Shown here: positions 1-63,251 of the stretch, piece by piece
Numbering within the stretch: the first letter of the stretch is position 1
Layout: the number at the start of each line of letters is the position of its first letter
Assembly: GCA_014706295.1 (NCBI GenBank)
Contig: JACSVZ010000011.1
Coordinates: 22,663-86,662, forward strand
DNA length: 64,000 bases
Direction of reading: 5' to 3'
From: Lycocorax pyrrhopterus obiensis
Taxonomy: Eukaryota; Chordata; Aves; Passeriformes; Paradisaeidae
The notes under the pieces: model-generated
The model's input: only the letters and a program-made list of their open reading frames with translations
Told to the model about the DNA's origin: nothing
Databases searched by the model: none
Made by a program: the position numbers and the translations under genes

Positions 1-642
1 GAGCCGAGAAGGAGCGGGCAGACAGCACCGCCACCTGACGGGCGCTCTGCAGCTTGCGGCCGGGAAGCGGACCCGGCCCTGGAAGGCGCTGCGGCCGCGA
101 GTTGCCGCAAGCGTCAGGGCCAAGCGCCGGGCGAGCCGCTCGTCCCGGCACGGTTCTCCGTGCGGGACGCAGCCGAGCAGCTTTCCGTTTCCTTTCAGAC
201 CACCCTTCCAGAGAGGCAGAATGTGGTGGTACGTAGCGCTCGGCAGGAAAGGGGCAGAAAGCTTTCACTGATGTGCCCCCTTGCCTTTTCCTTGCAGCCT
301 TTCCTCTTCAGAGCACCCACTGAAGCTATGCACTTTGCTTCTCAGCTGAGTGTATTGTCATATTGCCAGAGTCCCATACGTCCCCCTCCTTCTCGCACCA
401 ACTGCTTCTGTTGAAACTTGCCAATGCTACGCCCTTTCCCTCTCAGCTATTCGAACCATCACATTCTGCGTCCCGCTTGCAGTCTGAATCTAAACTGAAG
501 TTTCTGGCCTTATCTTGCATACACAGATGTGCCAGGAGGAAAAGTTTGCTCGGACCTTGCCGCTTATGTTCGAAAACGTCCATTCGCTCCACAATCAAAT
601 GCCAGCTTTCTTCCCTTTACATCCTACAAACTTCACACATGA

Positions 643-668
643 ACACACACACACACACACACACACAC
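643..668. repeat. (AC)n microsatellite in unit 1
   Basis: Thirteen AC dinucleotides. The matching tract in unit 2 has eleven, so this is one of the few differences between the two copies. Confidence 0.97.
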
Positions 669-779
669 TGGAGCTATGCACTTTCTTTCTTTCTTTCTCA
701 GCTGCACTCGCCAGTTCTCCACCTTGACTTCTCTACCGCTTTTCTCTTGGCCTTGCCATGCATGGACTTCTCCTCTTAT

Positions 780-3101: not shown

Positions 3102-3291
3102 TAACTCGCACACACTGAACTGCATAGAACTCACTGGACACGTACACTTTCTCTCAAGCTCTATGTCCCATCTTACCCTCTCACTCACGGAGACCCCAAA
3201 CCCCTTCAAAACATCCAGGACTTGCTCCCAAAGAAAAACTCCAAGAACAAATAGCCAGCGCTGGCCTTCATAGTCCCTTTGCAGTCTGTAA
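3102..3291 (-). repeat. Inverted sub-repeat present only in unit 1
   Basis: This 190-bp block has no counterpart at the matching place in unit 2. Its reverse complement resembles plus-strand sequence at 10977-11100: an 'actgcaaagggactatgaag' segment matches 'gctgcaaagggaaagtgaag', followed by 'TTTGTTCTtGGA' and 'GGGAGCA'. It is therefore a copy of the family's sub-repeat in the opposite orientation, sitting exactly where the near-identity of the two large units stops. Confidence 0.7.
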
Positions 3292-4727: not shown

Positions 4728-7700
4728 GAGCCGAGAAGGAGCGGGCAGACAGCACCGCCACCTGACGGGCGCTCTGCAGCTTGCGGCCGGGAAGCGGACC
4801 GGCCCTGGAAGGCGCTGCGGCCGCGAGTTGCCGCAAGTGTCAGGGCCAAGCGCCGGGCGAGCCGCTCGTCCCGGCACGGTTCTCCGTGCGGGACGCAGCC
4901 GAGCAGCTTTCCGTTTCCTTTCAGACCACCCTTCCAGAGAGGCAGAATGTGGTGGTACGTAGCGCTCGGCAGGAAAGGGGCAGAAAGCTTTCACTGATGT
5001 GCCCCCTTGCCTTTTCCTTGCAGCCTTTCCTCTTCAGAGCACCCACTGAAGCTATGCACTTTGCTTCTCAGCTGAGTGTATTGTCATATTGCCAGAGTCC
5101 CATACGTCCCCCTCCTTCTCGCACCAACTGCTTCTGTTGAAACTTGCCAATGCTACGCCCTTTCCCTCTCAGCTATTCGAACCATCACATTCTGCGTCCC
5201 GCTTGCAGTCTGAATCTAAACTGAAGTTTCTGGCCTTATCTTGCATACACAGATGTGCCAGGAGGAAAAGTTTGCTCGGACCTTGCCGCTTATGTTCGAA
5301 AACGTCCATTCGCTCCACAATCAAATGCCAGCTTTCTTCCCTTTACATCCTACAAACTTCACACATGAACACACACACACACACACACACTGGAGCTATG
5401 CACTTTCTTTCTTTCTTTCTCAGCTGCACTCGCCAGTTCTCCACCTTGACTTCTCTACCGCTTTTCTCTTGGCCTTGCCATGCATGGACTTCTCCTCTTA
5501 TGACACCCACTGTGTTGCCTACCCCTCCCTTCCATTGCCTTGCCTTTCCTACCCAACCTTGCATTTCCTTGTCATTCCAAACCGTTCCTTTCCTTTACCT
5601 TCCTGACCCGTCCATGTCCTTCCCTTGCCCTTCCTACCAATCCAGTTCCTTGCATTGACTTGTTCACCCATCCCCCACCTGACTTCCCTTCCCATTTGTC
5701 CAGGTCCAACCTTTCATTTCCTTCTCCTTCTAGGACTCTCATTGCCTTGCCTGCTTCACCCTTGTCTTGCCTTGCAAAGCCATCATTTGTCTTGCCTTGC
5801 CCTTGAACCCCTCCCTTGCCTTGCATTACTTTGCTCACCCCTCCCTCACCTGCAACTCAAGACCCCTTTTCTCCTGGCCCACACTTTCCCTGCCCTGTCT
5901 GCTCCCCTGAGGAATCCCAAGACTCTCATGTAGCACCAGTGTTTCAGAAGCACGTGAGAAAAAGCCCAGGGGAGGTCCCATGCAGCCAAGCCCATCTTTC
6001 TGGCATATCTTTTGTCTGGGACCAGTGCTCGCATGTGTTCAATTTTGGACGCACAATCCACGTTTCACCCTTGGGCTCCGCAACCAGAATGACAGTTCTT
6101 TTGCATACAGCTAGACCAAGTGTTTTAGGTGCAGATTAGAGACTGCCCATGTGGGATCAAAGCCAGACAGAGAAGTAGGTCCTGGCCACTTTTGCATCCC
6201 AGAAATCCTTGAATGTACCTCTCACCTCCCTTGCCTTGGAAACCCAACAGTTTCCTTGCCTTGCCCTGCTAACCCTCCCTTGCCTTGCATTCCCTTGCAT
6301 GCCCATGCCCCACCTTTCATCTGTCTACTGCTTTCCTCCAGGGCCTTGCCTTGCCCAGCCTTTCCTGTTTCTGCCAGGCCCACCCATCACTGGCCTTACC
6401 TTCCTATACCTAGCCTTGCCTCTAACTTCTGGGCTTTCTCTCGCCTACCACTCCATTTGCTTTCCTCTCACTGCTCTGGCCTTGCCTACCTCTCCCTTGA
6501 CTTGCCCAGAGTTGCCTACACTTGGTTTGCGTTTCCTTGCCTGCACGGAAGGCAATGGAAAGTGATAGGCAGGGCAAAACAAAACAAGGAAGTTGTAGGC
6601 AAGGCGAGGCAAAGCAGACATAGGCAAGGGAAGCAAAGCAAGGGTAGGCTAGGAAAATCTAGGCACAGTACTGAAGGGAAGGCAAGGCCAAGTGACTCAG
6701 ACTACCTTTTCTTGGGAAGCAAAGAGCAGAGTGCCAGTGTTGGTGGAGCAGATGTTAAGTTACCATGGGGAGGAATAGTCCAGCAAGATATTTCTGTCCT
6801 GGCACTTTCTGTGTGGGAGCAATTGTTGCACGTATACAATATGGAAAGTGGTATGCAGCTTTGGCTGCGTAAGTTCCTGAACGAGAATGGCAATGCTTTT
6901 TCATGGGAAGGAAAGCACATAGCCCCAGATTTGGTGGTGCTGATAAGAAGCTGCCTCGTGGAGGTCAAGGAGGCCAGCAACTTTCTGTCCTGGCATATTT
7001 GATATGGAAACATTGCCTCAATTCATGCAATTATGGCACTGGCATCCATCTTTGGAAGGTGGTCTCCTGAAAGATTCCATTTTGCATGTGGTTTCCATTT
7101 CTCAGAGGTGGCCTTCTGAAATTCTGGCAGCCACACCTAATTTGGACAAGGTAAAACAGCTATGCTGAGTCTTGATGTGCAGCTGATCTAGTGCCCTGGG
7201 CAGGTAATGCCCAGTAACAGTGTTCTGGCACCTTTGTATGGGATCAGGCACTGGATGCTTTGTATTTTGGAGGAGGGGATGCTATTTCTTTTGAGATGGG
7301 CTTATAGTTCCTCTTTGGCAAAGAAAGCAAGTTTGGATCTGCACATTGGGTGCTCTTAGTGAATTTAAAGGCTTTTCCCAATTGCCAGTTCTCTGGGTTA
7401 GAGCTGTTGAACTGTCAGTGGGAATGCAAAGGCCAAACTATTGAGCTTTTTGTCCTGGTACCTTTAGTGTGTCAGCAGTCCCTGGTTCCGTTCAGATCCT
7501 GACTCTCTGAGACTGGGCTGGGTGCGTTTCCTTCTTTTGCAGGTCGACAGCGGCATCGTGTGGTTGTTTTTTGTGAGCGCTGACAGTGCCCGGGAAAAAG
7601 ACACGCGCTTTTCTGGTCAGGCCCCATTCGTGTGGGAGCGGTTCGTGGAAGAGCTCTGCTGTAGATCCTGGCTCTTGGAGACTTGAAAGAATGTGATCTT

Positions 7701-7823
7701 GCATCTAGCAGCGAAGGAAGAGGAATCTTTTCATTGTTGGCTGTTCATAGGTTGCAAAAGAAAAGACAATTCCAGCACTGCCTCTTTCTTTTAGAACCTT
7801 TTCTGCTTGATCAGATGCTCATG
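4728..7823. repeat. Macrosatellite unit 2, near-identical segment
   Basis: Second copy of 1-3101, offset by 4727 bases at its start and 4722 after the CA tract. Both copies agree to within a handful of bases up to the words 'agatgctcatg' at 3091-3101 and 7813-7823, after which they diverge abruptly. Identity at this level points to recent duplication or gene conversion. Confidence 0.95.
5369..5390. repeat. (AC)n microsatellite in unit 2
   Basis: Eleven AC dinucleotides, two fewer than the matching tract in unit 1. Confidence 0.95.
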
Positions 7824-8804: not shown

Positions 8805-9240
8805 GCCAGCGGCCACGGTGACACAGCGGGGGAGCACAGAATCCACGGTGCTTTGTGGGCCGGTGGCTCCCAGGAGAGCCTTTGTGGTGCTGTGCAACCA
8901 CATGGAAGCCTGGCTCCACTGTGACACCACAGAAGCTCAGGGAACCCAGGAGAGTCTTTGTGATGCTGTGCAGCTACACGGAATCCTGGCTGCGCTGTGA
9001 CACCACAGAAGCTCAGGGAACCCAGGAGAGCCTTTGTAACACGATGCAACTACACGGAAGCCTGGCTCCACTGTGGCACCACAGAAGCTCAGGGAAGCCA
9101 GGAGAGCCTTTGTGATGCTGTGCAACTACACAGTTCCCTCGCTCCACTGTGACACCAGGGAAACTCAGGGAGCCCTGGAGACCGTGAGGATGCTAGGCAA
9201 GCTGACGGAACCCTGGCTACCACTGTAACTCTATGGAAGC
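8805..9240. repeat. 76-bp minisatellite, about five copies
   Basis: The word 'TTTGTG(A/G)TGCTGTGCA' and its variants start at 8881, 8957, 9033 and 9109, exactly 76 bases apart, with a weaker copy near 9185 and a partial one near 8805. Each unit carries 'ccacagaagctcaggga' and 'ggaagcctggctccactgtg'. Copy identity falls towards both edges. Confidence 0.9.
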
Positions 9241-13690: not shown

Positions 13691-16600
13691 TCACTGAGTA
13701 ACTTCTTCTTCTGGAACAACTTCCAAAAGCATCTGGAGGTGCATAGTGATGGGCTCTGAGGAGAAGATTTATTGTTAGAGGCTTTATCAGAGAGAGCAAT
13801 ATTTCAATTCAAACTATTTGTCTAAGTAAGAAAATTATCCTTCTGCGTAGTTGTTTGTCTTATCTGTATTCCTATTTCAAAATGAAAAATAAAGGATGGG
13901 GAATAAACAGTCTTAAGATCCAAACTGCAGCATTCCACATTTCCAAACTTGCATTAGAGTACAATGCTTCCAATTACATAATTAAAATTATAATTCATTA
14001 CAATTATTTAATTATAATTAATGATATTAATACATTATACTTAATAGTCCCAGGGGACAATAGAGACAGATGATGGATTTTTTGAATGTCTGTAGAACTA
14101 CAAATCCTGTTGTATTCAGCTAGTTCCAATTAGCCTCTTAGAAATACCTGTATATCCTGCTTTACCTGAGATAATATCAGAGTTTCTCTAGTGACTATGC
14201 AATCAGTTCATAAATGGTCACGCTGGGTTCTTGCAGCTTTCACTGTATGCAGCACTGGGATTATTTTTTATCTTAATGCTGTTAACATTTTCTTTAGTAA
14301 GTATTGTAAAATTAATAATCAGAGCTAAGAGCCCAGTGTTTGGTGGCATAAGAAGTTATGTCTGCTAATTTTAGTTAATCGCTAAAGCAACGTTTTGAAA
14401 TACAGATAACTGAAAAACTACCTTTACAGATTAATTAGTTCTGTGAACTTTAAAAGTCGGTTTCTTTGTGCTACTACAGCGATGTGTTGCTTTTTGTGAA
14501 TTAAGTTTAATTTTTCCTCAAGTCAGACATTACTTCCTTTCAACAGGAAGGAGTAAAATACAGTCTTCAGTAAAGCCCACTATATACTAGGGAAATTTTT
14601 TTCCCTCCATGTCCCGCTCACGTGCTTTAGAAGGGATGCACCAGATAGTGAGCTTTATTATAGTAATTGAATCTCAAGTTTAGCAAATGTTCTGTTGAGT
14701 TTGGAGCTGGCTGCCTGATGTATACTTACTTGATATTTTTTGGGGCCAGTTGAATTTTAAGTGAACAAAAAGTACATAAACTATAAGTCCACTAAGTATA
14801 AATAAAATACAGTACAAATAGGCCAGTTCAGGTGCACTGATGATTGGTGCCAATACCAGTAAAATTGAGACCAGTGTCACTATGACAGGAATGATGATGG
14901 GTATCTGCAAGATACAAAGAATAAAATCACTTCTTCATTATTTAGCTGTTCTTACAGAAGTTTCCTGTATGAAAGAATATTTTGATCGCCTTATGCATTT
15001 TTTACTTTTAAAATTTCTGGAATCAGATGGGGCAATTGAAGGAGTAGCAGAAGTATGGATAGGGAAAACTCTTCTGCTAAATTCTTCACTAAGATCTCTT
15101 TGTCTGTATTTCAAATTGCAGTGTACAAGTTTGCAGTTTAGTAAATGTGGGGCCTGACTTATGTGCAATAACCTGGGGTCTTATTTTGGATATTCTTTCA
15201 GTGGTAGTCTGCTGACTGCAGTTGCACATCTCTCAAAATTTGGCTTGTGCCCTGTGGTCTGTGCAAGTGAAAATCAACATCTTTTCACAGTCCTTATGAG
15301 CTTAGTCCTAGTGCAGAACTACTATTAAATGGCTAGATTTCAGGTAAGGGGAGTGAAAAACAAGGATACTGTTCAAGGGTCCTGGTTAAATATCCAGATA
15401 CTTAGGGTGAATCCATGCTACAGCATCTATGGAGTGGAGAAAAAGCCATACAGAACTTACCCTGATAGGTCTCCTGAGTTCCTTCCTTGTAAACCTCATA
15501 ATAATTAGTGCAAGTACAGTTAAACCATAAAATATCCAGACTGCAAAACTGAAGTAATTTATGAGTGTGTCAATGTCACCAGGAATAATATAAATAATAG
15601 CAATGGCCCCCTAAAAATGAAAACAAAATTACTGTAGTCTGTTATAGAAGAAGGCTGAATTTTACTTATGTTCCAATACAGCTGCATGCTTAGTGTTCCA
15701 GAGGATGAACTGTGAATGTTTTTGCTTAAACATTTGGGTGTAAGTGTATTGCAGCACCTTTAAAGATTGTGACTACATCCTGCCAACATGTGGTTATTTT
15801 TGTGTGTAATCTTAATACCATTTTAAGTCAAAATGCTTATAATTTTTATGCATTAATCTGTTTCATTGTTAATTGAATATCTTGAAGATACAAAATGTAT
15901 TTTTAGGTTTTTAATGTTACTGGGATTGAATAGATCTTGTTTTGCCTTGAAGATAAAAGGGTAAAATGAAAATAACAAGATGTTTTAGGGTTATTAATAA
16001 ATGTATTTACTGACTGGATTTTTTTTAGTGAGATGTAAATTTCTTATGTGGAGGAAACAGGGTAGTGATAGCTTGCTTGCAAGCATCTTGTGAAAGGATT
16101 CTGTAATATTAACCATTCATTTAAGTTTTTGTTTTCATGCTGTTGATTCTTAACCATTTTGATTTTTAAAATCCAGTCCGGAATGAGTATGTTCAATTTA
16201 GAGAAGCTGTGGGTTTTATGTAGTCTTTTTTCCAAAATGTATTTAGCAATTTTCTTGTCTAGATAGTTAAAGATATGTGTCAAGACTGCTTGTAAGAAAC
16301 TGTGGAAGTATGTATTACTGGAGAATTTTTGTTGATAATTTTTCTGTACTTAGAATATATACTTACATAAAATATGATAGCAGGTGCTGGTGTTAAGTGC
16401 TTAACACTAATGTAAGATAGTACCTTTAGCATGTGCCCTTCACGACCTGCAACATAAACAAGTCTGACAAAACAAAAACAAGGCAATGTAGTTAGTGTGG
16501 CACCTAGACTTTAGGTGGCATTACTAAAAATAGACATCTGACTAATTTAATCAGTATTTTCTTTTTGATATGCATTGGGATTTAAAGAGTATTGTAGCAG

Positions 16601-19600
16601 TTTAAAATAAGGGAAATAACCAGTAATAAAGCAGTGAGCTAAATCAAATTCTGAACCAGTATTAAAATAGTACACTTGAAATTAATTTCAGAATCATTAT
16701 TTTGCACATATAGTTGAAAATTATTTTGGGAAATGTTACCTACTGTGTCCCTTTTAATTAAATATTTCCTTTTTCATGTGCTTCATAGCAAAAAGCTATA
16801 TTGACAACATTTTTTCAAAAAATGGCCTTTACAGCTGCAATGTATTCAGATGGTTTTGAAATTTTAAAATACTTTAAATAGCAAATGGAAGCACTGAACA
16901 ACTGATAGAAAGGAATAGTTTCTCAGTTACCTTTGCTAGTGTAGTCATGTTTTTACTGGTAACTTTTAACTGTTTAATTCTCATCTTTAAAATTGATGAT
17001 TGGTGAAAAAACCTTTTTGTCCTACAGTGCTATACCTGCATAGAATTAAGAAGAGACCATGTTTTCTAGTTTTTCAAACCTGAATAGCCACCATTTATTT
17101 TTGAAAATTAATCAATAAAGCTAGATTTACAGGCAATTCTAAATTACATTTTTTATAATGTGCATCAGAAGAATGTCTTTATGTCTGTAGATACATGTAT
17201 ATACATTTTTCCATCCTTCAAAAACTTTCATTTGAAGATATTTAGAATGGGGACTTACCTCCCTGCAGTAAAACAGGTGCCATTGGCAGATCCAAGTGTA
17301 GAAAATACCACAAAGAGAGGAACTATCCAAGAGGCTGGATAAAGGACTCTATCTCCAAATGTCTGGGATATGGGATTAAAATTAATAATTTTGGCATTTT
17401 AATTACCATTTAATATATTCAGTAATGTTAGAGCCTCTTTGTAGGTAAAGTAAATGGGTATCTGAGCTGTGTTACCAACAAAACCATGTTGTATATTTTG
17501 TGTTCTTAAACAAGATTTAACTTGATACATTCTTTGCTGTAACTCCTGGTGCAGACAAGCTGCTGAAATGCACAAAAGATCTAAATTTTAAAAGCTTTTC
17601 TTTAAAAAAAAAATTTAAGCATTTAAACATTAGTGTACTTTTTCACTGTGCTACACTATATACTGTTTGTTTTCCTCAAAAACGAACATTAAAAAAATTG
17701 TTGCATGACCTCAACAGTTGTTTTGGAGACATGGAAAATTTACTGAGCGGAACTGAAGGCATAGATGTATTTTTTAAGGTTTCAGAAACTTACACAGTTT
17801 CTAATTTTACCTGTAAGAGTATATCTTGCAAAAATGTAAAAATTATATCTTTCAAATTTGTTAAGAAAAAAACCCAAAAAGAATAAGGTGGAAGTGAATG
17901 ATGGACTATTTGCTGTTATCTCCAGAGCAACAAACTTTCATCTACCGTCATTTAGCCTGTGCTTCTTTCTCAGAAATACTGAAAATGGCAAAGTGACTGT
18001 CAAATTTTATTTCTCTTTCCATCTTTTTGATGCCTATGGAAAGCAGTCACCCTCTGAGCTGCAATGTTTACAAAACGCTTGCTGAAGACTGTATTGCTTC
18101 CTTCCTTTATTCCCATTGGGATATGATAGAACTACTCTTTAAATTAGGCATTACTGAAATTTTAGATTAAGAAATGATAGCAGATAATGGGGGAAAAGGT
18201 GGCACTAACATCTTAGACTAAAATTAATTTTATCTTAAAAAAAATTAATGGAACTTAATGACTTACATGACTTCAATGCACACAGCATTCTTCAGATGTT
18301 CTATTACAAAATTAAGTAGCTTACCACAGCAACTGCCTGGGACTGCAGGAGTTCTGTTGAAGTCATTACAGTGAAATAGGAAACGTTTATCAGAATGTAA
18401 CAAACCGTAACCAAGGGGATTCCAATAATTATAGACAGCGGTAGATTTCTAAAGAATGGAAAAGTAAGATCCCATCAGCATTGCTGTATCACTGGTACAG
18501 TTGTCGTAGTACACTGTGGATTCTTTCTTTTCCTGATATGCTCTTTAGGTGTATTTACATTTTTTTTTTACTGTAGAGCTAAGGAAATCAGGATTATAAA
18601 AAAGGAAAACTATAAATTATGCAAAGATACAAAGTCTGCAATTGCTAATTAGCTTTGTCTGTTAGTGCTCAAACCTTGAATAACTAGTGCTTTTAAAAAA
18701 CAAACCAAAATATATGCTTGCTTGTAGAAAAATATTTAGTGTTTGATTTTTGCCAGTAAAAACACTTCTTTCCTACATAGTTTTACCTGTAAGGATTTTT
18801 AAGTTCTTCTGTGATGTAATTGAGTTGATTCCTGGAAGGAAAAACATTCATAGAGTATTTTAGCAGTCAGGTGCTTAAATATGACTGTACTATAAGGTGA
18901 GGTGTTATTTCTTGTGTTATTGTTTTTAATCTTTTCAGCTTAAAAAAAAGAAAAAAAAAGTACAATCAAACTTTTAAGTGGGAAAACTGCATGACAAAAC
19001 CTATGTGAGCTTCTTATCCAAAAGTCAGCCTCTTGATTCATCATCTCTTTCTGCATTATCTCTATTATCTCTGAGACACTGAAATCTTGGATAAAATATC
19101 CCAGAATAATCAAACAAAAATTTGGCAGGCATTTAAGATGTACAAGATTGCCTTCCAGCTTCAAGCTCTGCAGTATTTGGGTCTTTTCAAATAAAAGCAA
19201 AACTGTGCTGAGGGCAAGGAGTGAAGCAAGTCTGCTGGTGTTTCACAGTGGTTCTGTAAGTCATACTAGCATGAAAACCTTTTTAAGGATTTTACGTATC
19301 TGAATTATAATTTCCAAATACTCATTTTTGCTAGAGCATGTAGACCAATTGAAACAAGGTTTTTATATTAATCTGCTCTGAAAATGGGAAGAGTTAGTAT
19401 TTATGGTTCAAAAGGCAAATTTTCAGATGTTAGTGCCTGGTGGTTACATACACAAATAATTATTTAGGAATCAGCTTCTTTGCCCTCTTAAAAAGTCCAT
19501 ATGAATGCCTGAATTAGGAGACTTACATGCCTGAGTTGAGACACTCAAGCTTGGAAATAGAATCTAAAAAAAAATCTATTTAAAAATAAATTCAGTTTTA

Positions 19601-22600
19601 GAAGCTTTTAATGGGAACTGCTGTGCGGCAGATCAAGATTATATTCTTATTTGCTTCTGAAGTACAGACCTATATTCAGACTTTTGCAGTTTGTACATTT
19701 AAGAATAACAATGGATTTGTGCCAACAGAACACTATGCCAACTGACATTCCCTAAGAAAAAATATGCAGGTTGAACCTTATAATTTCTGATATAATGTTT
19801 TTTTTTATGTTCTCCTGTACTAATCAAACACCATTACATATTTTGCAAGAAATGGAATTTGATGGAGTAACCTGCAGGGAAAGCTATTTTGCCTAACACA
19901 AGGGAATTAAACTGTGTTATATCCTCCTCATTACTTCAGTTTCTAAGCACCTTCAGCAGCAAAGCAGTAGTAGTAGTAGTCCTTTTGAGATCTAATATAA
20001 TTTCTTTCCCTAATGAACAGCAACTAAAAGAGGGTGGAGTTTTGGGGTTTTTTTAACCAAACTAGTGCTCTTTTTCCAGAATTCATCAACACATTCTTAA
20101 TAACAAGTCAGTTGTTAACTTTTTCAGAGAGTTCTACGGGGAGAAAGTAAACCAGTTAAAGGCTGTTAAAGTGTAACTGTTAAGGCTAATAAAGATTCCT
20201 TACCATCCATCATATGCCCAGAGTCCGTTATAAAACGCCAAACTGATAGAGCTAACAGAAATTTTACTGTCCTTGAAAGAATCTTTGAAGTTTTCAGTTT
20301 TTCCTGCAAATAAGAGGAAGATTACTGATCAGTGTTAAAACTAATTCTTGTAATCCTCACCAGATGAAAAAACATTCCAACATATGTCTCATGTTTTGAA
20401 ACTTTTCACTTTAATTAATACCCTTTTGTATTTAATGATCAGTAGTCTTGCATTTCCCACCCATCCCCATTCTCTAAAAGAAAATACCATAGTTTCCAAC
20501 AGATGCAAACTAAAACCCGGAATGAAGAGATTCAGGGCTGTGCCTTATTACTGTGTCACTTCTGTCAGTGGGGAACTTTTTAATGATCATAGCAGAAGCG
20601 AAAAGAATTTTTTCAAATAATGTATATTTTATTACCTTTTGCAAGGAGAACAATTCCACTTACAATAATGATTGTCACAATGATCATTTTAGCAGCTGTG
20701 AGAAAATTCTGGAGGTAGCTTCCCAGCTTCACACTCAGTGAATTCACAATTGTAATTACCACTAAAAGAAATCAAATTATAAATTTTTGCATTGTTTGTC
20801 AGAATGTAAAGAAAAGTTGCCCCTCCCCTTATTTACTGTACTGCTTTTCCCTCACACTTTTTGTCTAAATTATATACAGTTTTTACGTACTGTGTTTGGA
20901 TAAGTTTTAAAATAGTGAGGAAAAACAGATTTATGAATTAGATTTTGATAGTACCTTTAACAAAAAATATTTTGAAGTTGCACAGCAGTCTGATAAATAA
21001 AAAAATAGTATTTCCACACTTATTTTTTCTTCGTTTTCTGCTAGAGATAAGCATGCATTATACAGCTGCATCTATCTTAATGAAGAATAAAAAACCCCTT
21101 GGACTAGGAACAAACCATTTTTAAACCTATCCTTTTTAAGTTGTTGAATTAGTTATTGTGGGAACGACTCACTGGACTGTGTCTTAAAGATTTCTGGTGT
21201 CTTTGTGAAGATGAATCTAAGGAAGTTTCGGGGTACGGACGTGCGCTTATTGATGGGGCCAGACACAGGTCACTATGCAATTTTGGATCTGGTCTGTCTT
21301 AAAAAGTGTGAGTCTTACCAATAGCAGCTGCTGCAAGACACTTGATGACAACCTGGGGTGGATCACAACCTGGATAAAAAGGGGCTGATGCGTATTCTGC
21401 AAAGCTGAGACAAATGATTGCAAATGAACTGGGTTTTGTAACCAGTAAGCTTGTCCAAGAAAACAAAAATGCTGGAATTGGGCCAAATGCCTCCATAAGG
21501 TAAGGATATTCTCCCCCAGACTTTGTGATCATTGTACCAAGCTCAGCAAAACAAAGTGCACCTGAATAACAAGAAAAGCAGGTTTAGTTCATACACTTTT
21601 GAACCTTGGACTGCTTGAAGAGATGATCACTTTTTAATAGGTAGAAAAGTTAAGGAAATTGATATATACAGTGCATCATTACTCTGTTCATGTTTCTGTA
21701 TATTTTACTGTATATGCAAAATAAAATTTTAATTACTTGTGAGCAATTGAAAAAAATACCCTGAAATGATTAATATGCAGTCTAAAAATTACTACCATTG
21801 ATGTTTAAGACTTCACCAAAACCAGTACAAACATTGTGATTTCATTGGATTTCTGTTTAAGAAACAAGCACTATAAGAAGCGTTTAAGTGGCTGACACAC
21901 CTTTTGGAAACCTCAAAAAACAGACTTTCTGCACAATTTTGAACTAAAATGGCTGCTAAGCACAACATTAAAGTACAGTGATACTTCCTATTCTATTGCT
22001 CTATGTGGCATCCTGAATTAAGGGTTTTCTGTATGCTGTCTGCCTTGATACAATGCTCAAAAATTTCTTTGTTTTACTTCTTGAAATATTTTGAGGTGCT
22101 TAGTGCTAAATTTTCAGACAATAAAATTAGAATTATGGAAGTACAAAGCTAGCAGAAAGTACCTAGCTCACTACCAGTAAATTTTACATATAGCCAGTTA
22201 TTTAAGTAGAATAGTGTTCTCTTTATTACAGTCAGTGGATGAAGCAGGCAAAACTAAAACTTTGTTTCAAAATAAATTGAGAGTGTGATTTACAAATTTA
22301 AAAACTTTGTGTTCTATAAACACTCCATTTTAAATTTATGGTTGAGTGCTGCTATGCATACATACAGCAGGATTTAGTTGATTTTGGTCTCGGTGCTATT
22401 AGCTAATTTGTGAAATGAGAGTAGTATGCAGAAACAGCAGATATAAAGATTTAAGCCAAAGATTCAGATTCTTTGCTGACTCCTTTACCTAATGTTGCCA
22501 GAACTCCACAGGCTGCCCAGATGGTTAAACAAGGACCCACAGCTTCAACATTGGCAAGCACTGATTTTGGAGAAACGAAGATACCTGAGCCAATAATTGT

Positions 22601-23897
22601 ACCAACAATCATACAGATTCCACTAACGAGGCCCACCTTGAAATAAAATGAGATGTATTTGTAAGCAATTTCTAGTAATTCAGCAATTACTTCTCAGTAT
22701 CATAGAACTACAGCAATTGTCATTACTGACTTATTTTTATTGGCTTTCAAAATATAGTTCTATAAAGAAATATATTAAACAATTTTGCAAGGTTTCACTC
22801 TTCTTTCCAAGACCAGCATGTACCCTGTGGTGTACTTCTGCTGTTTTCAAAAGTACATCTATTTGTGTTTTGTCTGCCCGTGTATTTCCTTTATTAAACT
22901 GTCTTTTGGATTGAGTCTCAAATATAACTGTGGATGGGTGAACTTGCCCTTTCCTCTCTGATTAAGCAATGACATTCTATTACGAACAGTTGGTGAATTC
23001 TGAATTTTCTAAGATTCAAAAATTGTCTTTCATGGACGGAGTCAGTTTTTTTTTGTTGAGCAGCTGTTTTCCTCTCCTTGCTTTAAATATTTGTGCATAG
23101 GAATCGTGTTGATACTGCTAGGTGGTGATAAGATCATGTTCGCCTAAATCTGTAGTGACCTACAAGTGGCACAGGCTACTTAATATTTTCTGATAGTTAT
23201 GGCTACTCTAATGACATCAGTATTTTTCCAGTCTTGCCATCAAACTAAAACCACATAGATAATCTTTTTCCAGGTTACTTAAATTAACTTTAAGAGAAAT
23301 GCCACTCCCCTCCTGAGAGGAAATGATACAACTGTTTTCTAAAGTATCTGTAATTTTCTGGAGGAGACAGATTTTCACTTGTCCTCAAGTACCAGTGCCT
23401 ATTTCCTGGCTATAAACACTAACAAACTTTCAGAAACAATGAGCTGGACAACCCACTACAACTTCTAAAAAGTCCATGTGGAAAAAAAGTAAAGTTTATG
23501 AAATGCCTCAGTTATCAACTTGGAATAAGTCTTTGAATTATTTTTATATCGGATAACTTCAATGACATATTCTTGGGGTTTTATTCTGTTTATATCAGAG
23601 CTATTTAACTATAGTAATTAGCAGTTTCTGAAAATGTCCATCAACCACATTGTTGAGATATTAGCATATTTTTGCTAAATTGGGACACAGTAGTGGTTTT
23701 TGTAGGCTGATACATATGCACAAATACCCCCTTCTGCCTCCCTCTGCCAACCCCTCACACATGGATCAAAGGGGGAAAAGAAAAAGGTTTGCCTGCTTTC
23801 GTAGGTTCATCGTTTGGGGTTCATGATTCTGAATGGATTGTCTGTCCTCTCTTCCTTTGTCCTCTCCTTTTCTTTTCTTCAAGCTTTCTTCACCCAT
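13691..23897 (-). CDS. SLC7A9: b(0,+)-type amino acid transporter 1, complete
   Basis: Light subunit of the b0,+ exchanger. With SLC3A1 (rBAT) it takes up cystine and dibasic amino acids in exchange for neutral ones at the apical membrane of kidney and gut. Twelve coding exons (5' to 3'): 23897-23793, 22636-22489, 21561-21319, 20761-20636, 20303-20204, 18831-18787, 18448-18325, 17362-17259, 16463-16367, 15610-15461, 14904-14730, 13755-13691. They total 1482 nt with consistent phases and encode 493 aa (human 487, from memory). Seen: start [16 protein letters not shown]1 motif [15 protein letters not shown]6 motif [37 protein letters not shown], and C-terminus [12 protein letters not shown]. 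Cys150 in [10 protein letters not shown] matches the human Cys144 that is disulfide-linked to rBAT. Every internal splice site is GT-AG except the first donor, which is GC (23792-23791). No frameshifts or stops were seen, so it appears functional. Confidence 0.96.
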
Positions 23898-23918: not shown

Positions 23919-24149
23919 CTAAGGAAATAAAAACAAAATCTTACTCTAGCATAATAATGTTGCTTGATTTTTGCTGACGATGTGGGTCCAAAATAGTGTA
24001 GGTAAATATTACCAGGAAACAAACACATGCACACACTCGCTCAAAGGCAAAGGACTTCCATCGAACTACCTACTCAGAGAAGAAATTGAAGAGGAGAAGT
24101 TATGTCAACTTCTGATGTCTGACCTGCTGTGGATTTTCCTCATACCCAC

Positions 24150-24198
24150 CCGGCAAGTGAATGTCTGTCTTCTGTCGCAGACTACATTCAGTTTCGAG
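24150..24198 (-). other. Probable noncoding exon 1 of SLC7A9
   Basis: Inferred. The TATA box at 24223-24230 predicts a start site near 24198, and a donor-like GCCGG|GTGGGT lies at 24150. A second possible donor lies at 24146. Transcript data would be needed to fix the ends. Confidence 0.4.
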
Positions 24199-24222
24199 GA
24201 TGTCCTTACCGGAACGATCAAG

Positions 24223-24230
24223 CTTTTATA
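24223..24230 (-). promoter_or_regulatory. TATA box of SLC7A9
   Basis: On the minus strand the sequence reads GGCTATAAAAGCTTG, a strong TATA box. It sits about 330 bases above the SLC7A9 start codon and about 140 bases from the ATG of the divergent plus-strand candidate gene. A GTTAAATTAG word at 24336-24345 resembles part of an HNF1 site, and mammalian SLC7A9 is reported to be HNF1-dependent; the match is weak. Confidence 0.6.
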
Positions 24231-24367
24231 GCCAGTCCTTCCTCTGAACTCCTCCAACGGTCCAGACAGATTTTATCTTCCCCCCAAAAGCTAGTCTGTT
24301 TTCTTCTTATCTAGGAGACCTTCTTTCTGTTCTTCGTTAAATTAGGCCCTGCCTCAGTTCCTTGGAG

Positions 24368-27300
24368 ATGGAAGCATCTGCTAAACAGAGTGTGGGCTAC
24401 TACAACTATCTAATTAGCAGCTCTTTGCCTCAGAAGGAGTCACCAGTCTTCTCTGTGTTGATTCAGGGTGAATGTCTTCCACTCAAAGTTTTGTCCTGTT
24501 TAGAGCAGGAATGTAAACAGTTTGTTTTCAAATTTAAATTTAGACTTACAGTTTTTTTTCGGTGAGGATTTTGCTTGTTTTCCTTAGTATTGGTCTAAAA
24601 TACAATCTGAGACAGTGAAGGAAATTGATCGGGTTTAGGTCCTGAGTCTCTAAAGTGGATTCAGTCAGAAGTCTCTTCTCTCCTAAGACTCTACAACTAT
24701 AATTACTTTAATTTGAATGCTGAAGATCATTATGCTTTTATACAGATGATAACTCTGGAAGGCATCATGTTTAGGAAACATAAGTTGGGGTTTTTTGAAA
24801 ATTAAGTAGTAACTGGCTACAAAAACTGCAGCATTTTAAATTGACAGAACACCTATCTCAGTATTGTGGTCTTCAGAAACATTTGGGCTGTAAAAACATC
24901 AAGTTTATCTTTTGAATTAAAGATTTTTTAAAGAATCATAATGAATCTAACTTTTTAGATTAAACCTATGATAGAAAACACATGAAGAATGCAGGGCTTG
25001 GGTCCCTGAACTTCATTATAGCTTTGTGCCCAATGTCTCTCTTTTAAAGCCATGTATTTAGACTGCTTCAATTATCACCTTTAGCAATTCTTGCTTTCAC
25101 TTACCTTATTTGTTTACATTTGTTTGGTGTTAATCGGGTCCAGGAATCCTTGTCAAGTGTATTTCTCCTGTTATTTCCCAGCCAGTTACAAGCAAGGAAT
25201 GTCCATGTCTGAAACCGGAATACGCAGAAGGAGCAGCAGCTTAAGTACAGAGGTTATAAAAGGTAATCATTAAACCCATTCTCTGCCAAGAAACTCTGAG
25301 TTAGGAACCACAGGTAAACCGATAGTCCAATTAGTTTATCTTTAAAAACAAGAAAATTCGTCTTTGTTCCATTTGTGAGAATGTTTGTCCAGTGCCTAAG
25401 TAGTGTATTACATAGTGAGAGTGAACCATAATTTGGAGAGTCTATTTTGATGATTTTTATAGCAAGCAGTTGCTAATTAAGAAATGCTTTGGAAAGATAA
25501 CCTTGAAGTAATTGTCATATTATGGGTGCATCAAAACAATTTGTCCAGATTTTATTTGAATCCTATAAAAATAGTTGGTATTTTTATCTTGAGAAGGTAG
25601 AGAAGCATGAGAAAAAAATGTTTCCTTTGTTTTTCATTAACCTGAGGCAGCTGAGTGGGCAACTTGTGTTCCCTTTGCTTGCAGTTACAAATATTTTCCA
25701 TTTTTGTAAATATTTAAAAATCTTGCTCCAGTGAAAAATACCATTCTCTATTTCTATGCAGTTGTATATCCAGGAAAAAAAGTATTACTATCCTGAATTC
25801 TGTAATAAGGCAACAGCTTTCATTTGAGCTGTAATAAGGCAACAGCTTTCATTTGAGCTAGTTATTCCTAAAACACTTGAAAAAAAACCCCTTGATCATG
25901 TTAATCACTTAATTGTTTTTAGCAATGCAGTTGAACAACTCCTTTGCTGTATGACATTCAAAAGTCCTAACCAAACCCCTCTAAATGCCGATGAGTTTTT
26001 CAATAAGTATCTACTGTTAAAAGCTAAAAGATGTTCAGGTACTGGTCCCTGATGTTAACATTTAACATCTGTTGCCTTCTTGAGATAATGCCTCATAAAC
26101 AGGCAGTACAGGGCTGGAAATAAGACCAAATTGTTGGGCCTGAGCATCAACAAAACTATCCTAAGCATGATTTAACAGTTGTTTTCCTCACTTTTTTTTA
26201 AGCATGCAGGATTGATCAACAGGAATTCCTTCTGTAATGATGATGTAAATCTGTGACTGAACATGGACTCTTAAGAATATGTGAAACACTTGTTAGTTTA
26301 TATTTGCCATGTTTTGTGATGTTTGAGCCAGACTGTGCTGGGAATGTTTTTCTCCAAGACTGAAGTTGCAAAGTAATGTCGGTACGGAAAACAAAATCAA
26401 AGGTGTACTTTTTAGTCACTGGCTTTTTTCTCTCTTTGTTTTTATTGTTTAATTCTCACAGAAATAGGGTTAAGATACAAGAGAAGCTCTTCCATTTTAA
26501 ATAACTTCTTATTGAAAAACTACGACAGTAAGTATGGCCTAACAAAAGTTTGGGGCATTTTTACCTACAGATAAAGAGAATAAAACATGTTAAAATTATA
26601 GTCTTACTACAACCATATCAACAAAGGTATGAACAATTTATTCCTTTTTCTACAAGTTTTACAAGGACTTTTAAAATATTTTTCGTGGTAACTGTGATGC
26701 ATGATTAACTTATGTTTTCAGATCCTTCAATTTCACATGCCTCATTTGGGATCAGATACTATGTAATGTACTTCTGTGTTCTTTATACCGATAATTTTGA
26801 AATGAAGATTTATAATCTTATCATTCCTGTGTTGTTCCTGAAATGCCACAGAGACTATTGAAACAGCTAATGTGAAAAGAAAAAAAGAAGGGAGGGATCA
26901 TATTATGGGGCTACCATTGTCCCTTGAAATGAAGCAGGCGCATCTTTCACATCATCTCTACCCTGCAACTTCCAAACCAACAAAAAACCCTGAAAAAACA
27001 GGTAATTTTGATGAAAAGATAATGGGGTATTTAACCTTTATTGTTCTGTTAAGTAAGGTTTTGCTTGGGAATTTTTCTTGGATTTAGTGTAGGTAGTCTT
27101 CGATTTTTTTGTATAGATGTACGCCTTAGTTGTCTTTTCTTTCTCCTTCAGATCTGTACTCCATTTTGTTTCTTCAGGTCCCATAAAATCAACATTGAAA
27201 ATATGTTGTTTGAGTTTTTGCCTAAGCAACCGGTTTCTTTAGTCAGCCTGGAATGTCCATCTGGAGAATTCCCACCCCTTCAATAGGTGTCTTAAGTCTC

Positions 27301-27648
27301 TGCAGTGATTTGACCTTAACTAGTCTGTGTTTCTTTATAAAAATAGAAAAGTATCTTCGTTTATTGTCTAGTTTTGCTTTAGGGGTTGCTCTTCTTGGGA
27401 TGCTGTAAACCTATTAAAAGATTTGCAGTTTTACCAGCAATCCTTCTTTTCCTCAGCCACTGAAGTTATAAATAAACATTGATTTCAAGGATTCTATTAG
27501 TATTTTCTTCATAGACAAGAGAAATGACATTTTACAGCCGTGGGAAAAGAGTCCTTCCCTCTCAAATAGGTACACAGATGAAGAGATGAAGGAGTTCAAA
27601 TTCCAAGGGACTACACAGGCAAACACTTTGAGGGCTGGTCCTATTTAA
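24368..27648 (+). CDS. Candidate novel five-exon gene, 176 aa, divergent from SLC7A9
   Basis: Not recognised. Exons: 24368-24467, 25182-25262, 26462-26527, 26852-27001, 27515-27648, totalling 531 nt including the TAA stop at 27646-27648. All four introns are GT-AG with good sites (donors GG|GTGAAT, AAAG|GTAATC, GACA|GTAAGT, ACAG|GTAATT; pyrimidine-rich acceptors) and the phases match at every junction. The ATG is in good context (GAGATGG). The product starts MEASAKQSVGYYNYLISSS, has a basic Ser-rich part (GIRRRSSSLSTEV, then LRYKRSSSILNNFLL), a Lys/Arg patch (VKRKKEGRDH), a His/Pro stretch (AHLSHHLYPATSKPTKNPEK) and ends TTQANTLRAGPI. No signal peptide, membrane segment or known domain was seen. 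It is probably a small intracellular protein. An alternative donor at 27570 could extend it. I recall no gene between SLC7A9 and CEP89 in human. Confidence 0.55.
25800..25858. repeat. 29-bp tandem duplication
   Basis: Two perfect copies of a unit beginning 'ctgtaataaggcaacag' lie side by side in an intron of the candidate gene. Confidence 0.95.
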
Positions 27649-27685
27649 ACACTGTAGTTTGAACCTTTTCAAATGCTATTTACCA

Positions 27686-27691
27686 ATTAAA
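27686..27691 (+). terminator. Poly(A) signal candidate of the novel gene
   Basis: ATTAAA, a common variant signal, 38 bases after the predicted stop codon. It supports reading 27515-27648 as the last exon. Confidence 0.4.
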
Positions 27692-27699
27692 TTGTAAAA

Positions 27700-30600
27700 A
27701 GTAATTTTTAACTTTAATTCAGGAAATAGCAAGGGCACAGTGTATAAATACACTTTTATTATTAGTTACTAAAAGGAAAAGTTAATGTTTGTTAGGGTTG
27801 GTATTTATTGCTTGCAGTAATGCATGTTCTACTTTGACCAATACTAAAGCAAATCATAAGGATGATCTTAACTTGCAGCTTTTAATTGTAGCTTAGCAGT
27901 ATCTTAGAGTGGATACTTTCCATTCTAACCTTCCTGCTTACAAGTTAATTTTAATGAGAGGACCCGTGTGTTTCCTCGTATTTGGTCTTGTTTGAATCTG
28001 ACCATTAATAGATGTGTTCCATGACGTGATCTCAGTACTGTCATCCTTAAAAGCATTTTTTTTCTGAGTAATGGCGGGTATGCTGCAAGTGGAACATAAG
28101 GAAAAGGTCTTATTTAATAGCTATGGTGATGCTGGGTTATGCTACTGGATTGCAAGATCTTTGCATCTTGTGGAAGTGAATAGGAAATATTAGGTGACTG
28201 TAGTTCTTAACAGAACTACTTAATAGAGTATGGTTCTTAACAGAATATATGGGGGTTAAATACCCGTATTTTTTCCCTACATAGTTCTTGGTTACAGTGT
28301 AATTGGTTTTTCTTCTGTGACAAATACGGCTTTTGAAAAGATATTCAGGTTTGCTAAAGGTTTTGTACTATATCTACCTGAATTGTGCAGAGTCTTTAGT
28401 CTAAAGAGAGATTTCTTTTTGTATAATGTATTTTTTAAGCGCAGCTGTTCAGAGACTCTTAACAAACTTGTGAAAGCTGGGTGTGTCATTCTATCCAAAA
28501 GGTCATCAAAAAATCAAGGAGTCTCTTCATAAGGATGTTCTAAAGGAATTTTGATGGCCTCTGAAGAAAACTAGCTTGAGTATGTCATACTAGGTTTTTT
28601 TTCAAAGACTGTGAGGATTTTAACAGTGCATCAAAGTCTGATCAGAATCAATGATTTTTCTGATAAACAACCAGCCCCTCGTGTTTTTCTCTTTTAAAAA
28701 CAAGACCTGATTTTGATCTCCTTTTTGAGTCCAAAACTCAGGTTGCTTTCCACTGGCCTTTCACCAAGGAAGGGTTACCAGATAACATTGGTTTTGGAAG
28801 ACACATCTGTCTTGTGCCCACCTCTAGCTGAGGAAGGAAGCAGTGAATACTGAAGCACTCTACTGAGGTTATGATGTTCTGTGCTACTTTCGAAGTCTCA
28901 TTTTAATTTTATATTTATCAAAACAAAATATTTGAAGTATAAAACAACTCTAATTGCTACAATATATATCCTTCTATATTTCATATCTGAACATGTGCTT
29001 ATATAGGTATGTTGAAATAAATTTAGTACAGAAGGAAGAAGTTCAGAACTAAAAAAAATCTGGAGAGCTCACTCCCTGATAAATCACATTTTTAAACATA
29101 AAGAAGCCTTCAAAGTGCATCTGGTTTTCTAGATTCAAGCTGATTGACACCATGGAGTTTTTACCATACTTATTTACATTAGATTTGGAGAGCAGGATGA
29201 GTGCTTAGAACTCTCCTAAATGGAAGAGCCATGCCTGGCCAAGGATTTGTATTCCCAAGGGAAAAGCTCTTTGAACTCCTGATGCAATGTACCAGGAGAG
29301 TGGCATGAATTTTTCATAGTGAAAAAGTCCTAGGGGGTTCTCTCTTCTGAGCTGGTGAAAGGCAATCTTCTGGCCTGAAAAACAGCATCTTTCAGGCTTG
29401 AAAATAGAGGTAGGGGAAAAGAAAAAAGCTGGGTTTAAATGACTTCTTAATGGTTGGAGGAAATTTTCTATAAACTGGAAAAAATGATAAGGCAAGTATA
29501 CGTCAATGCTCTGTCAGTTCACAGGACATTGGTACATACTTACCTTAATGACTGCTGAGTGACTGCTGAGCGTCAGACTCTCCCTGGTATTTACACAACC
29601 AAAACACAGAGTATGAAATGCTTTGTTCTGACAATAAAGTAAGAAGTAATGCTACTATTTTAGCAGTAGTTGACAAATGCATTGGAACTACTGATATTTA
29701 CTCTGAACTCTCCTGCGGTTTTGGTTTTGGAAGGGTGATAGCAATGTTTGCTTTTTGAATACATAATTACATTATTTATTCCAAATTATGGCAAAATTAT
29801 GTTCAGTTATTATGGACAGAATATGCTCTGTAAATTCATCAATGAAACTTGAATGTGACTACAGTTCCACAAATCCTGAATTGTTTTCCCTTTTCTTGGT
29901 AGGAATGGAAGAATGTTTTTATGTTGTCTTGTGAAAGGAAGCTGAAACTACTTCATGGATTCAATTTAGTGACTGGAAGATCTGGAAGATACTGTAACTG
30001 GAAGGCAGGTGCAATATAATGGAGTCAGGATGCTCTGCCAGCTGTGGTCAAGGGAAAATAACAAGTTGCTATTGTCAGGTGGGTAATAGAAAAAGGATAA
30101 ATTGGCATGGGTAGAATTATTGTACTAGAATAAAACAGTCAAATAATTTCTTTAGTCATCCAAATTTAGCATAGTATCTATAAAACAAGGAAAAGCTCTG
30201 ATTTTAAAATTCTCATTAAGTTACACACCTTTAATGAAACATCATCTGGCAGTAGTGGTCCAGTAAATACTCCTATAAAGGCATTTTTCAGTCATCCTGG
30301 ATTTTCTGTAGTGTGCTGAAAACTACACCAAGCGTGGGAAAGAAATGAGAACAAGTGTGCCACCTTCATGAGACACAATAGTTAGCATCACCAAAAGCTT
30401 TTGTGGCTCTTCAGTTATTGTGTATAGAAGAGGTCCTGAAAACTTTGATAACACTTGCACATGTATGTATGCAAAATGCTTATCACAGTGAATGGTAAAA
30501 GGGAAAAATTCACAGATCCATCTTTGTATCGGAAGTGCTGACTTATTTTTGGCTTTTGATCTTTAGATCAAAATTAATCCTTAATTAAACATTAGATTGA

Positions 30601-30810
30601 CTTAGATTGGACAAGTCCTATCCTAACTTGTCCACTTTGCTTCTAACTCTTGTAAGCACCTCTTTCCTGCCTTCCTGCTGAGTCCTGCAGCACAGCAAGA
30701 GCATGACAGTGAAGAGGAATCGCTGGGCACAAGGCAGCAACATGTTCGAATTGGGATTTTAATACAGCTACAAAAGGAGAAGGTAATGAAGGCAGTTGTG
30801 TCTAACATCT
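27700..30810. other. Intergenic stretch, no gene seen
   Basis: AT-rich unique sequence between the candidate gene and the ERVL LTR. The longest open frame (96 codons, minus strand, 29205-29495) starts without a supported context and has no domain. I found no splice-consistent continuation of the candidate gene here. Confidence 0.6.
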
Positions 30811-31869
30811 TGTCGTGGTTTGACACTGGCCAAATGCCACGAACCCACGACAGCTGCTCACTCACCCTCCCCTGCCACAGCTGGGCAAAGGAGACAAAAA
30901 AACTAAACGAAGGGTTCATGAGTTAAGGACCACGAGAAAACACTCCAAGGGCATAACAGGCTCAACTTATAGGTACAAAGTGAATTTATTACTAACAAAA
31001 TCAGAGGAGGATAATGAGAAGTAAAATAAGCCGTTAAAAACACCTTTTCCCCCCATCCCCTCCCTCCTTCCCAACAATAGCGCAGGGAGACAGGGCAGGG
31101 GGGTTTGGTCAGTTCACCACCCGAGTTCTTCTTCCACTGCTCAGGGAGAGGAATCCTTCCCCTGCTGCACCGTGGGGTCCCTCCCACAGGAGACAGTTCT
31201 CTGTGAACTTCTCCAGTGTGGGTCCACTCTCACGAGCAGCAGTCCTCCCAAAACTGCTGCAACGCGAGTCCCTCCCACAGGCAGACAGTCCTCCCAGAAC
31301 TGCTGTGGCGTGGGTCACTCTTCCACGGGGTGCAGTCCTCCAAGGACAGGCTGCTCCAGCCTGGGAGCAGGGCCCTCTCTCTCCACTGGGTCTCCCACTG
31401 GATCACAGCCTCCTCCAGGCATCCACCCACCCTGGTGTGAGCACCTCCCCCACGGGCTGCGGGTGGATCTCTGCATCCCCCAAGGACCTCCAGGGACTGC
31501 AAGGGGACAACCTGCATCACCACGGCCTGCAGAGGAATCTTGGCTCCGGGGTCTGGAGTACCTCCCTCCTGCTCCTTCTCCACTGACCTTGGTGTCTCCA
31601 TGTTGTTTCCCTCACATGTTCTCACCTCCTCCTCTTCTCTAGCTGGAATTAAAAGTGCCCCTCTTTGTTTTGATTTTCTTCTTAAATCTGTTACCACAGA
31701 GGCATTACCATCATCTCTAATTTGCCCAGCTTTGGCCAGCAGCATGTCCATCTTCAGAGCCATCAGGGATTGGCTCTGCTGGACAAGGTGGAAGCTTCCA
31801 GCAGCTTCTCACAGAAGCCACCTCTGTGGTGCCCCTGCTACCAAAAACCAGCCCGTGCAAAACCAGTAA
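30811..31869 (+). mobile_element. Solo LTR, avian ERVL type
   Basis: Begins TGTCGTGGTTTGACACTGG and contains the recurrent 'gggtccctcccac' and 'gcagtcctcc' phrases typical of songbird ERVL-family LTRs. Near the end it has the phrases 'cagcttctcacagaagccac' and 'gctaccaaaaaccagccc'. Length is about 1.06 kb. The terminal ACA is degraded and no target-site duplication was found. No retroviral coding region lies next to it. Long open frames within it are by-products of GC content. Orientation follows the usual presentation of this family from memory. Confidence 0.8.
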
Positions 31870-34240
31870 GTGTAACACTGTCTTGCCTCATCACTTCTCA
31901 CAAATCCTTGGTGGCTGTACTGAGGAACTGCTGATCTCTCTATCCTTTAACTAGTGTTCCACACTATGGTGAGATGCATCTTTGTCTTCAGACCTGTCTG
32001 CCTGATACTCCTTTATTTAAGCTATTTTTCCTGTTGCTCCGATGAAGTAAAATGAGTTTCAGAAATACTGTTCCTTGTGACATTTCTTCACCAAATAATG
32101 CTATTAAACTCTCCTTAACTGCACCTCCTAGAATTCAATTTTTGATATTCTGAAGCTGAAAAGATTAACTGCCAAAATACACAAAATGTCTCTAATTGGA
32201 TTGGTTTCTAGTGGCTCCTCTTTTTTTTCTTTCAGTGCTAAAAGATTATTTTCTTCTTATTTTTAATTATTTCTTTAGTGCAGAAGTGATGGACATACAT
32301 CCTTTAAGTTCTTCCTTCTAGCTAGCTTTTGAGACATTGGATTTTGGTTTGATTAGGTAGTGGTATTGCCTGCTAGGCAACTTAGCTCCTAAAATTATCA
32401 ACTTTGTTAGTAATTTTAGCAGGTTTTTGTTTTTCCTTTATATTTAAATGTTGTGTGTTTTAATAAAACCATATTTTTTTTTCAGAAGAATATTTATACA
32501 TGTAATGCTATTCTTTTAATGTTTTTTCTAGTCCTAAAATCGATAGTCAGCAATAAGCATTATTTTGTGTACTTTCTGTACACAGAAATATCCTAAAACC
32601 AAGCGGTTTAATGCAAGATAAGAAACATACAGAGCATAAGATTTATGTTTCTTATGAAAGAGATTTACAGGAAAACCAATTCTTTCAGCTGTTAATAAAA
32701 GAGAGAATCAATTTCTTTCCTGTCAGAAGGAACTGGAGGGAAGCACCTATCTAATCATCAATTCTATTTGTACAACACTTGGCACAATTGCAAATGTGTT
32801 TACTTTTGTGGATCTGAAACAATTCCAATATTTTACTGTCCAAGTATGTCAAATGGGTGATATGTTCATATGTATTTAAAATATCCTATAACAGGATTAT
32901 TCGTTATGCCAAAAAAGTGTTCCTGAGCCACAAAAGGACTTTTTCATCCATGGGACATAGTTTTTTTCTCAGTTTTTCCTGTGGAAACTGAGTATGGAGA
33001 ATCACTCATGGATTTGATTAAATGTTAGCTCATTTAAAGTTTAACACCATATTTTAATGATAAGCAAATGACAAAGAAGTGTAGCATTTCTGAACAAATT
33101 CTTAGGAGTGTCACTGTCAAGGTGCTGCCCTTTGAACCATGTATTAAAATCTACTCTAAAACAATTCTAGACATTCCCAGATCACTTCAGTGGAAGAACA
33201 GTTAGGCCAATATTGAGAATTTTGAAAATCTTGCTTCTGTTTCTGAGGAATTACCAATACAATAGTTTTTCCTTGTGAAACTGCTTATTTTTAGAAACTC
33301 TTAAAACATACTCAAAAGGGCAATTAAAACCAGATGAGGATAATATTGTAAATACTAAATCAGTTCTGAGATTGTATGTGCATATTCAGAGATGCTTATA
33401 TTAAAAAATATGACATGAGAGGCTTCATTTTCCAAACCTGCCTTCAAAAACATAAAAAGCTGTGGGTATAGCCATGTTCGATGCTCTTCCAGGGTCTGCA
33501 CACCTGCAGATTGAAGCTTGTGTGGAAACGAGAGGAGTGTGTATGCCTGTCTAACTTACCTCTAATACTTAAGAGGTATTTCAGTCTTGACATTTCAAAT
33601 TAGTTTTTTTTTTTTGTCAAATTCAAGGAAGAGAGGAGACAGGACTGGTTTAGTGAAAGACCACCCCCATGCCAATTTCACTTATTAACGAAGTTATTTA
33701 AGATTGTGTTTAAAAATAGTTTCTGGTTGTTATGTTGAGGCATAGAGTCCTAAAATAATCAAGTTGAAAAAGCCAGGAGAGGCTTCGAAAGGATTCGAAG
33801 GTGTAGCTCTTGTTAAGTCTCTGGGCAGGGATCAAATGATAGTGTGCTGTTAGAGACTAGTTCTGTTAATCAGTGTCTTCATGACTCTGGCATGCTGAAG
33901 TTGTATCTTGATGAGCTGCTAAGGTTGTTGCACTTGTTTTATTCCTATGAAAGATAAGTAATTAAAGTACATCTTAAAATCCTGCTTGCATATATATGAC
34001 TTAGCTACTTTGGTGGTTTCCTATAATCAGGGCAGTATCTGAGTGCACTGAGATTCTGCCAGTGCTTTGAAAGTCTGTAGATTCTTTAACTTTGCACTGT
34101 ACTGCAGAACCTGGCTTTGAAAGCTGTACATCTACCTGTCCTTGAACATCATGGTGTGACAGGAAGTGCTGTCCCCACCCTCTCCTGAATAAAGCCATTC
34201 TGCTGAGTCATGGCCTTACCCTGAAGGAAAGTGCTGCAGG
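31870..34240. other. Intergenic stretch, no gene seen
   Basis: AT-rich sequence without recognisable repeats or coding potential. An isolated 65-codon minus-strand frame (34001-34198) is noted but unsupported. Confidence 0.55.

Positions 34241-35391: not shown

Positions 35392-63251
<27,860 letters not shown>

Follow-up and report, generated by a model that had tools for sequence, protein, structure and literature searches.

A five-exon open frame beside SLC7A9 in Lycocorax pyrrhopterus obiensis: a non-coding reading favoured over a lineage-restricted gene

The window analysed here, a stretch of 64,000 nucleotides from the bird-of-paradise Lycocorax pyrrhopterus obiensis, carries between SLC7A9 and CEP89 five stretches that join across splice-like sites into one open reading frame (Table 1). 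The sequence facts of this five-exon reading were confirmed. On balance, we lean towards the view that they do not amount to a protein-coding gene of the proposed structure, and a non-coding reading is modestly favoured over that of a lineage-restricted coding gene, which keeps a substantial though lesser probability. The 176-aa frame would be one of many open paths that splice-like sites permit in ordinary AT-rich intergenic DNA, and we infer from the evidence set out below that coding function is absent. Transcription of the stretch, if it occurs, would most likely arise from the SLC7A9 promoter firing divergently, giving a non-coding RNA that might use the donor of exon 1 and the acceptor of exon 2; any peptide made from it would be incidental.

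Table 1. Position of the candidate exons and neighbouring features in the window
Feature	Position	Strand	Remarks
SLC7A9 coding exons	13703..23897	-	tblastn with human protein; splice sites for all junctions but the first; start codon at 23897, final matched coding exon ends at 13703
Local GC rise, possible shared promoter	24000..24399	.	GC 0.45 against ~0.35; between the two start codons
Proposed exon 1	24368..24467	+	start codon, 33 codons + 1 nt; open; donor GG|GTGAAT; chosen unguided by simple gene finder
Proposed exon 2	25182..25262	+	81 nt, phase 1-1; top acceptor of the model, log-odds 4.9
Proposed exon 3	26462..26527	+	66 nt, phase 1-1; open, GT-AG; GC 0.288; codon and amino-acid scores negative
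Proposed exon 4	26852..27001	+	150 nt, phase 1-1; open; weak acceptor, log-odds -0.07; protein-like amino-acid composition
Proposed exon 5	27515..27648	+	open, TAA stop; acceptor CTTCATAG; protein-like amino-acid composition
Possible polyadenylation signal ATTAAA	27686..27691	+	motif class every ~549 bases
CEP89 3' coding exons	35422..60475	-	tblastn with human protein; matches human residues 424-782

The window begins 22.7 kb into a 21.14-Mb contig of a 1.10-Gb genome, and SLC7A9 and CEP89 were placed in it by tblastn with the human proteins. The CEP89 fragment of the window is 93-96% identical to the CEP89 of Ptilorrhoa, Vireo and Rhagologus over 89% of the fragment, with named bird CEP89 proteins ranging from 64 to 96% identity over 11-100% of it. 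Since both genes lie on the minus strand, with the candidate on the plus strand between them, the candidate stands head-to-head with SLC7A9 and tail-to-tail with CEP89. The first-pass annotation of this DNA had proposed the head-to-head arrangement, and the two start codons, on opposite strands and 471 bp apart, bear it out. SLC7A9 and CEP89 are likewise neighbours on the same strand in human 19q13.11, where the interval measures about 6 kb, compared with about 11.5 kb between the matched coding parts in the window. No gene is known to be annotated between the two in human; by human gene order, TDRD12 would be expected beyond SLC7A9. The excerpts of the literature that name SLC7A9 together with CEP89 mention no gene in the interval, and a search of the literature on the two genes with a bidirectional promoter found no paper.

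In GC-rich DNA at the beginning of the window, positions 1-3101 (3.1 kb) are repeated at 4728-7823 with 99.6% identity, which looks like a recent duplication; four open frames of 186-304 aa in 1-7823 gave no significant Pfam match, the best being JTB, below the cut-off (E 0.019). A 76-bp tandem repeat with 4.7 copies and 81% matches occupies 8869-9226. Another GC-rich, repeat-like stretch at 30800-31950 (GC up to 0.63), perhaps an LTR, shares 66% identity across some 850 bases with part of another contig. Within an intron of CEP89, part of a retroelement is marked by an RVT_1 reverse-transcriptase domain (49414-50223, minus strand, E 5.8e-22).

The candidate gene (24368-27648, plus strand) was reproduced from the sequence as it had been described, with consistent phase and canonical splice sites: its five exons give 531 nt and 176 aa in a continuous frame from start to stop across GT-AG introns, all four of phase 1, and the single stop is terminal. 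The good start-codon context (GGAGATGG, with G at -3 and at +4) and the ATTAAA signal at 27686, 38 nt past the stop codon, were both found. The signal alone carries little weight, because A[AT]TAAA motifs occur about once per 549 bases on the plus strand. The predicted product is small, basic and rich in serine, as had been claimed (pI 9.7, 13% Ser, 10% Lys, no Cys), and the 176-aa sequence gave no match in Pfam. A perfect 29-bp tandem duplication lies at 25800-25859, in proposed intron 2.

Nearby GT and AG sites allow 48 stop-free in-frame combinations, the proposed model included, several of which use weak sites. With thresholds set to approximately the scores of the model's own weakest sites, the longest open path in the stretch is a different model of 723 nt, in which exons 1 and 2 have different boundaries and the last exon is a different one. 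Open paths of at least 531 nt were found in 2 of 52 real GC-matched windows of 3.5 kb (taken from 20 loci on one other contig and from non-coding DNA within this window); with three background models, such paths arose in 1, 13 and 4 of 300 simulations. For paths of at least 723 nt, the counts were 0 of 52 and 0, 4 and 2 of 300, respectively. Against chance in matched DNA, the open length is borderline. If some 25 windows could have been read, which is our estimate for both strands of the AT-rich part, the probability of at least one chance path of 531 nt would be roughly 8 to 67%; with the whole window open to search, the model can arise by chance.

When both strands of 12.0-63.5 kb were scanned (194 overlapping windows), the candidate stretch came fourth among seven paths of at least 400 nt. 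All three longer paths are in GC-rich DNA, one at 30.0-32.8 kb and the others around the reverse-transcriptase element at about 47.5-51.6 kb, and the path of SLC7A9 reached 486 nt. The outcome shifted with the choice of site thresholds. At (1.4, 1.1, 0.5), the candidate stretch gave 507 nt, a length attained by none of the 52 real windows; pieces of SLC7A9 and CEP89, for which no start threshold was set, gave 582, 468 and 327 nt. At (2.5, 2.5, 0.5), the stretch gave 312 nt, reached by 4 of the 52. Overall, the tests against chance are mixed.

The stretch was also scored with a simple gene finder with a local background, which replaced earlier permissive runs dominated by GC-rich DNA. The whole five-exon model scored 0.1 (-1.4 and -10.4 under two other training sets), and 138 of 500 simulated and 55 of 96 real windows had a best model scoring no lower. 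A separate run gave the five-exon model -0.2, a value matched or exceeded in 30 of 50 real windows; pieces of known genes, which were inside the training set, scored 16.3, 12.5 and 19.5. With held-out training, windows on real genes reached at most 7.1, a value that the null also attains, and per-exon scores were negative for the true chains of SLC7A9 and CEP89. Because held-out known genes also score poorly, the low whole-model score has little force, and the method cannot reject the model.

Left unguided, the gene finder preferred exons 1 and 2 together with another last exon at 27152-27186, for a score of 9.6; none of 500 simulated windows scored as high, and the 3 of 96 real windows that did came from a single locus. 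Exons 1 and 2 were chosen with all three training sets, exon 4 being added with one. In the separate run, the two were chosen together at two of three intron penalties, the harshest giving other ends for exon 2; for the three penalties in turn, 1, 2 and 8 of 50 real windows matched or exceeded the unguided optimum. Exon 3 was absent from the unguided choice, and exon 5 was never chosen unguided. Exons 1 and 5 had been regarded as the least certain in the first-pass annotation; in the unguided scoring, exon 1 was, with exon 2, the one selected most often, and exon 5 has a protein-like composition. The least protein-like exon is exon 3.

The coding statistics as a whole point both ways, and several were picked after the sequence had been seen. 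The amino-acid composition of the candidate, scored as human frequencies against local six-frame noise, exceeds that of SLC7A9; 1 of 336 simulated open frames and 9 of 120 overlapping real ones scored at least as high, 6 of these 9 coming from two loci. With a codon model trained on SLC7A9 and CEP89, 1 of 210 simulated frames and 5 of 63 real ones matched or exceeded the candidate; with training on one known gene, the candidate scored about equal to or above the held-out other. Untrained codon models agree with the trained score more weakly, as the candidate was reached, at three settings, by 5 of 235, 16 of 215 and 49 of 230 simulated frames and by 15, 19 and 31 of 119 real ones. Composition by codon position is noise-like. 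G1 minus G2 is 0.057; 48 of 191 simulated open frames have at least this value, and every one of 89 overlapping pieces of 176 codons from SLC7A9 and CEP89 is higher (lowest 0.114). GC1 minus GC2 was reached by 142 of the 191; a basic, Ser/Lys-rich protein would likewise lower G1 minus G2. Equal phase of the first four introns arose in 7 of 251 simulations. The exonic and intronic CpG counts of the candidate (5/526 vs 14/2746) stand in a ratio that resembles SLC7A9 (9/1298 and 21/6586), and CEP89 shows little difference between exons and introns (9/1067 and 171/23974).

Searches for related proteins among 5.77 billion sequences returned none at E<=0.1, with 535 candidates having words in common with the query; only proteins 0.55-1.75 times as long as the query were eligible. 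As a control, the CEP89 of the window retrieved 33 proteins, 13 of them with bird names (two being "hypothetical proteins") and 12 from a source tagged lgn, which we take to be Logan assemblies; this is a single control gene and does not gauge the completeness of bird coverage. Since bird proteins are present in the collection, the lack of a match makes an annotated, conserved bird gene of 97-308 aa less likely, but the search would overlook a product well above that length or a gene listed as lncRNA. The absence of relatives fits a taxonomically restricted gene and no gene equally well. Two PDB matches, the only ones (E 0.91 and 1), were taken as chance. No Rfam match was found in the window at gathering scores, nor a relative in IMG/VR and prokaryote contigs, where none was expected.

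Within the genome of the bird itself, the protein-level search found no paralogue, and a sixth match on another contig (E 1.44), with stops inside, was set aside as noise. A DNA search of the whole genome, in which simple repeats and very common words were skipped, returned one match, the candidate itself, and no DNA copies at E<=1e-3 were found in the window or in 20 sampled loci. Repetition elsewhere in the genome, as expected of a transposon-derived stretch, was not seen, and an origin from a paralogue or repeat was rejected, no second DNA copy having been found.

The alternative with a substantial claim is a real, small, fast-evolving gene restricted to songbirds or to birds more widely, with a basic, Ser/Lys-rich product of 176 aa and a promoter common with SLC7A9, to which we assign a somewhat lower probability than to the non-coding reading. 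The peptides of exons 2 and 3 align (ETGIR-RRSSSL and EIGLRYKRSSSI) in a motif E-x-G-[IL]-R..RSSS[LI]; the match was reached by 8 of 3000 shuffles and concerns one of ten exon pairs, picked after the fact. It does not look like a DNA repeat, because its serine codons differ (AGC AGC AGC vs AGC TCT TCC). This motif, with no repeat copies found, argues for a coding gene along with the frame held open over five exons with phase-1 introns, the protein-like amino-acid composition, the codon score and the unguided choice of exons 1 and 2, but the codon positions are noise-like, the full model does not rise above the null, several of the favourable statistics were selected with the sequence in view and the 5.77 billion proteins, bird proteins among them, hold no relative. 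For such a gene, one may guess that the product would probably be disordered and that RSSS[LI] could serve as a phosphorylation or binding site. We give a slightly lower probability still to its specific form, a songbird- or bird-restricted gene for a 176-aa basic, Ser/Lys-rich protein, head-to-head with SLC7A9, with two E-x-G-[IL]-R-..-R-S-S-S-[LI] copies in the phase-1 exons 2 and 3 and no relative in the collections searched.

It is unlikely, in our judgement, that the model is partly right, in the sense that exons 1 and 2 belong to a real gene or transcript whose 3' exons differ and which encodes another, perhaps longer, protein missed by the length filter. Exons 1 and 2 were indeed chosen without exons 3 and 5, and the limits of 0.55-1.75 times the query length leave room for a longer product, but Pfam in the three plus-strand frames of 24300-34201 gave nothing at E<=1. 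As this reading overlaps the other two, the probabilities of the three do not add up to one.

The favoured non-coding reading may involve the region upstream of the SLC7A9 start codon. The local GC rise there contains 9 CpG (observed/expected 0.45) and forms no clear CpG island. HNF1-like sites were considered as a marker of the SLC7A9 promoter and discarded: 6 matches (two mismatches) were found vs 3.96 expected, and 26 of 100 shuffles reach 6. None of the matches lies between the two start codons, and three are inside the proposed gene. Long non-coding RNAs near coding promoters are described as common (PMC3882496). The candidate resembles divergent head-to-head lncRNAs in its position and orientation beside the SLC7A9 start, the 471 bp being counted from start codon to start codon on opposite strands, and canonical splice sites need no coding. 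It differs from them in having no known transcript and no clear CpG island at the putative promoter.

The candidate also resembles taxonomically restricted or orphan genes, being short, devoid of detectable relatives or a domain and situated beside an existing promoter. Genes of that class are recognised by being transcribed and translated and by a frame kept intact in relatives, all of which would be predictions for the candidate. PhyloCSF tracks have been produced for chicken (PMC6886504). If real, it would be a protein gene missed by annotation in a well-studied syntenic interval, and a case for asking how lineage-restricted genes come to use an old neighbour's promoter. Otherwise, it would provide a measured example of how easily an open, splice-consistent path of 176 codons arises in AT-rich bird DNA.
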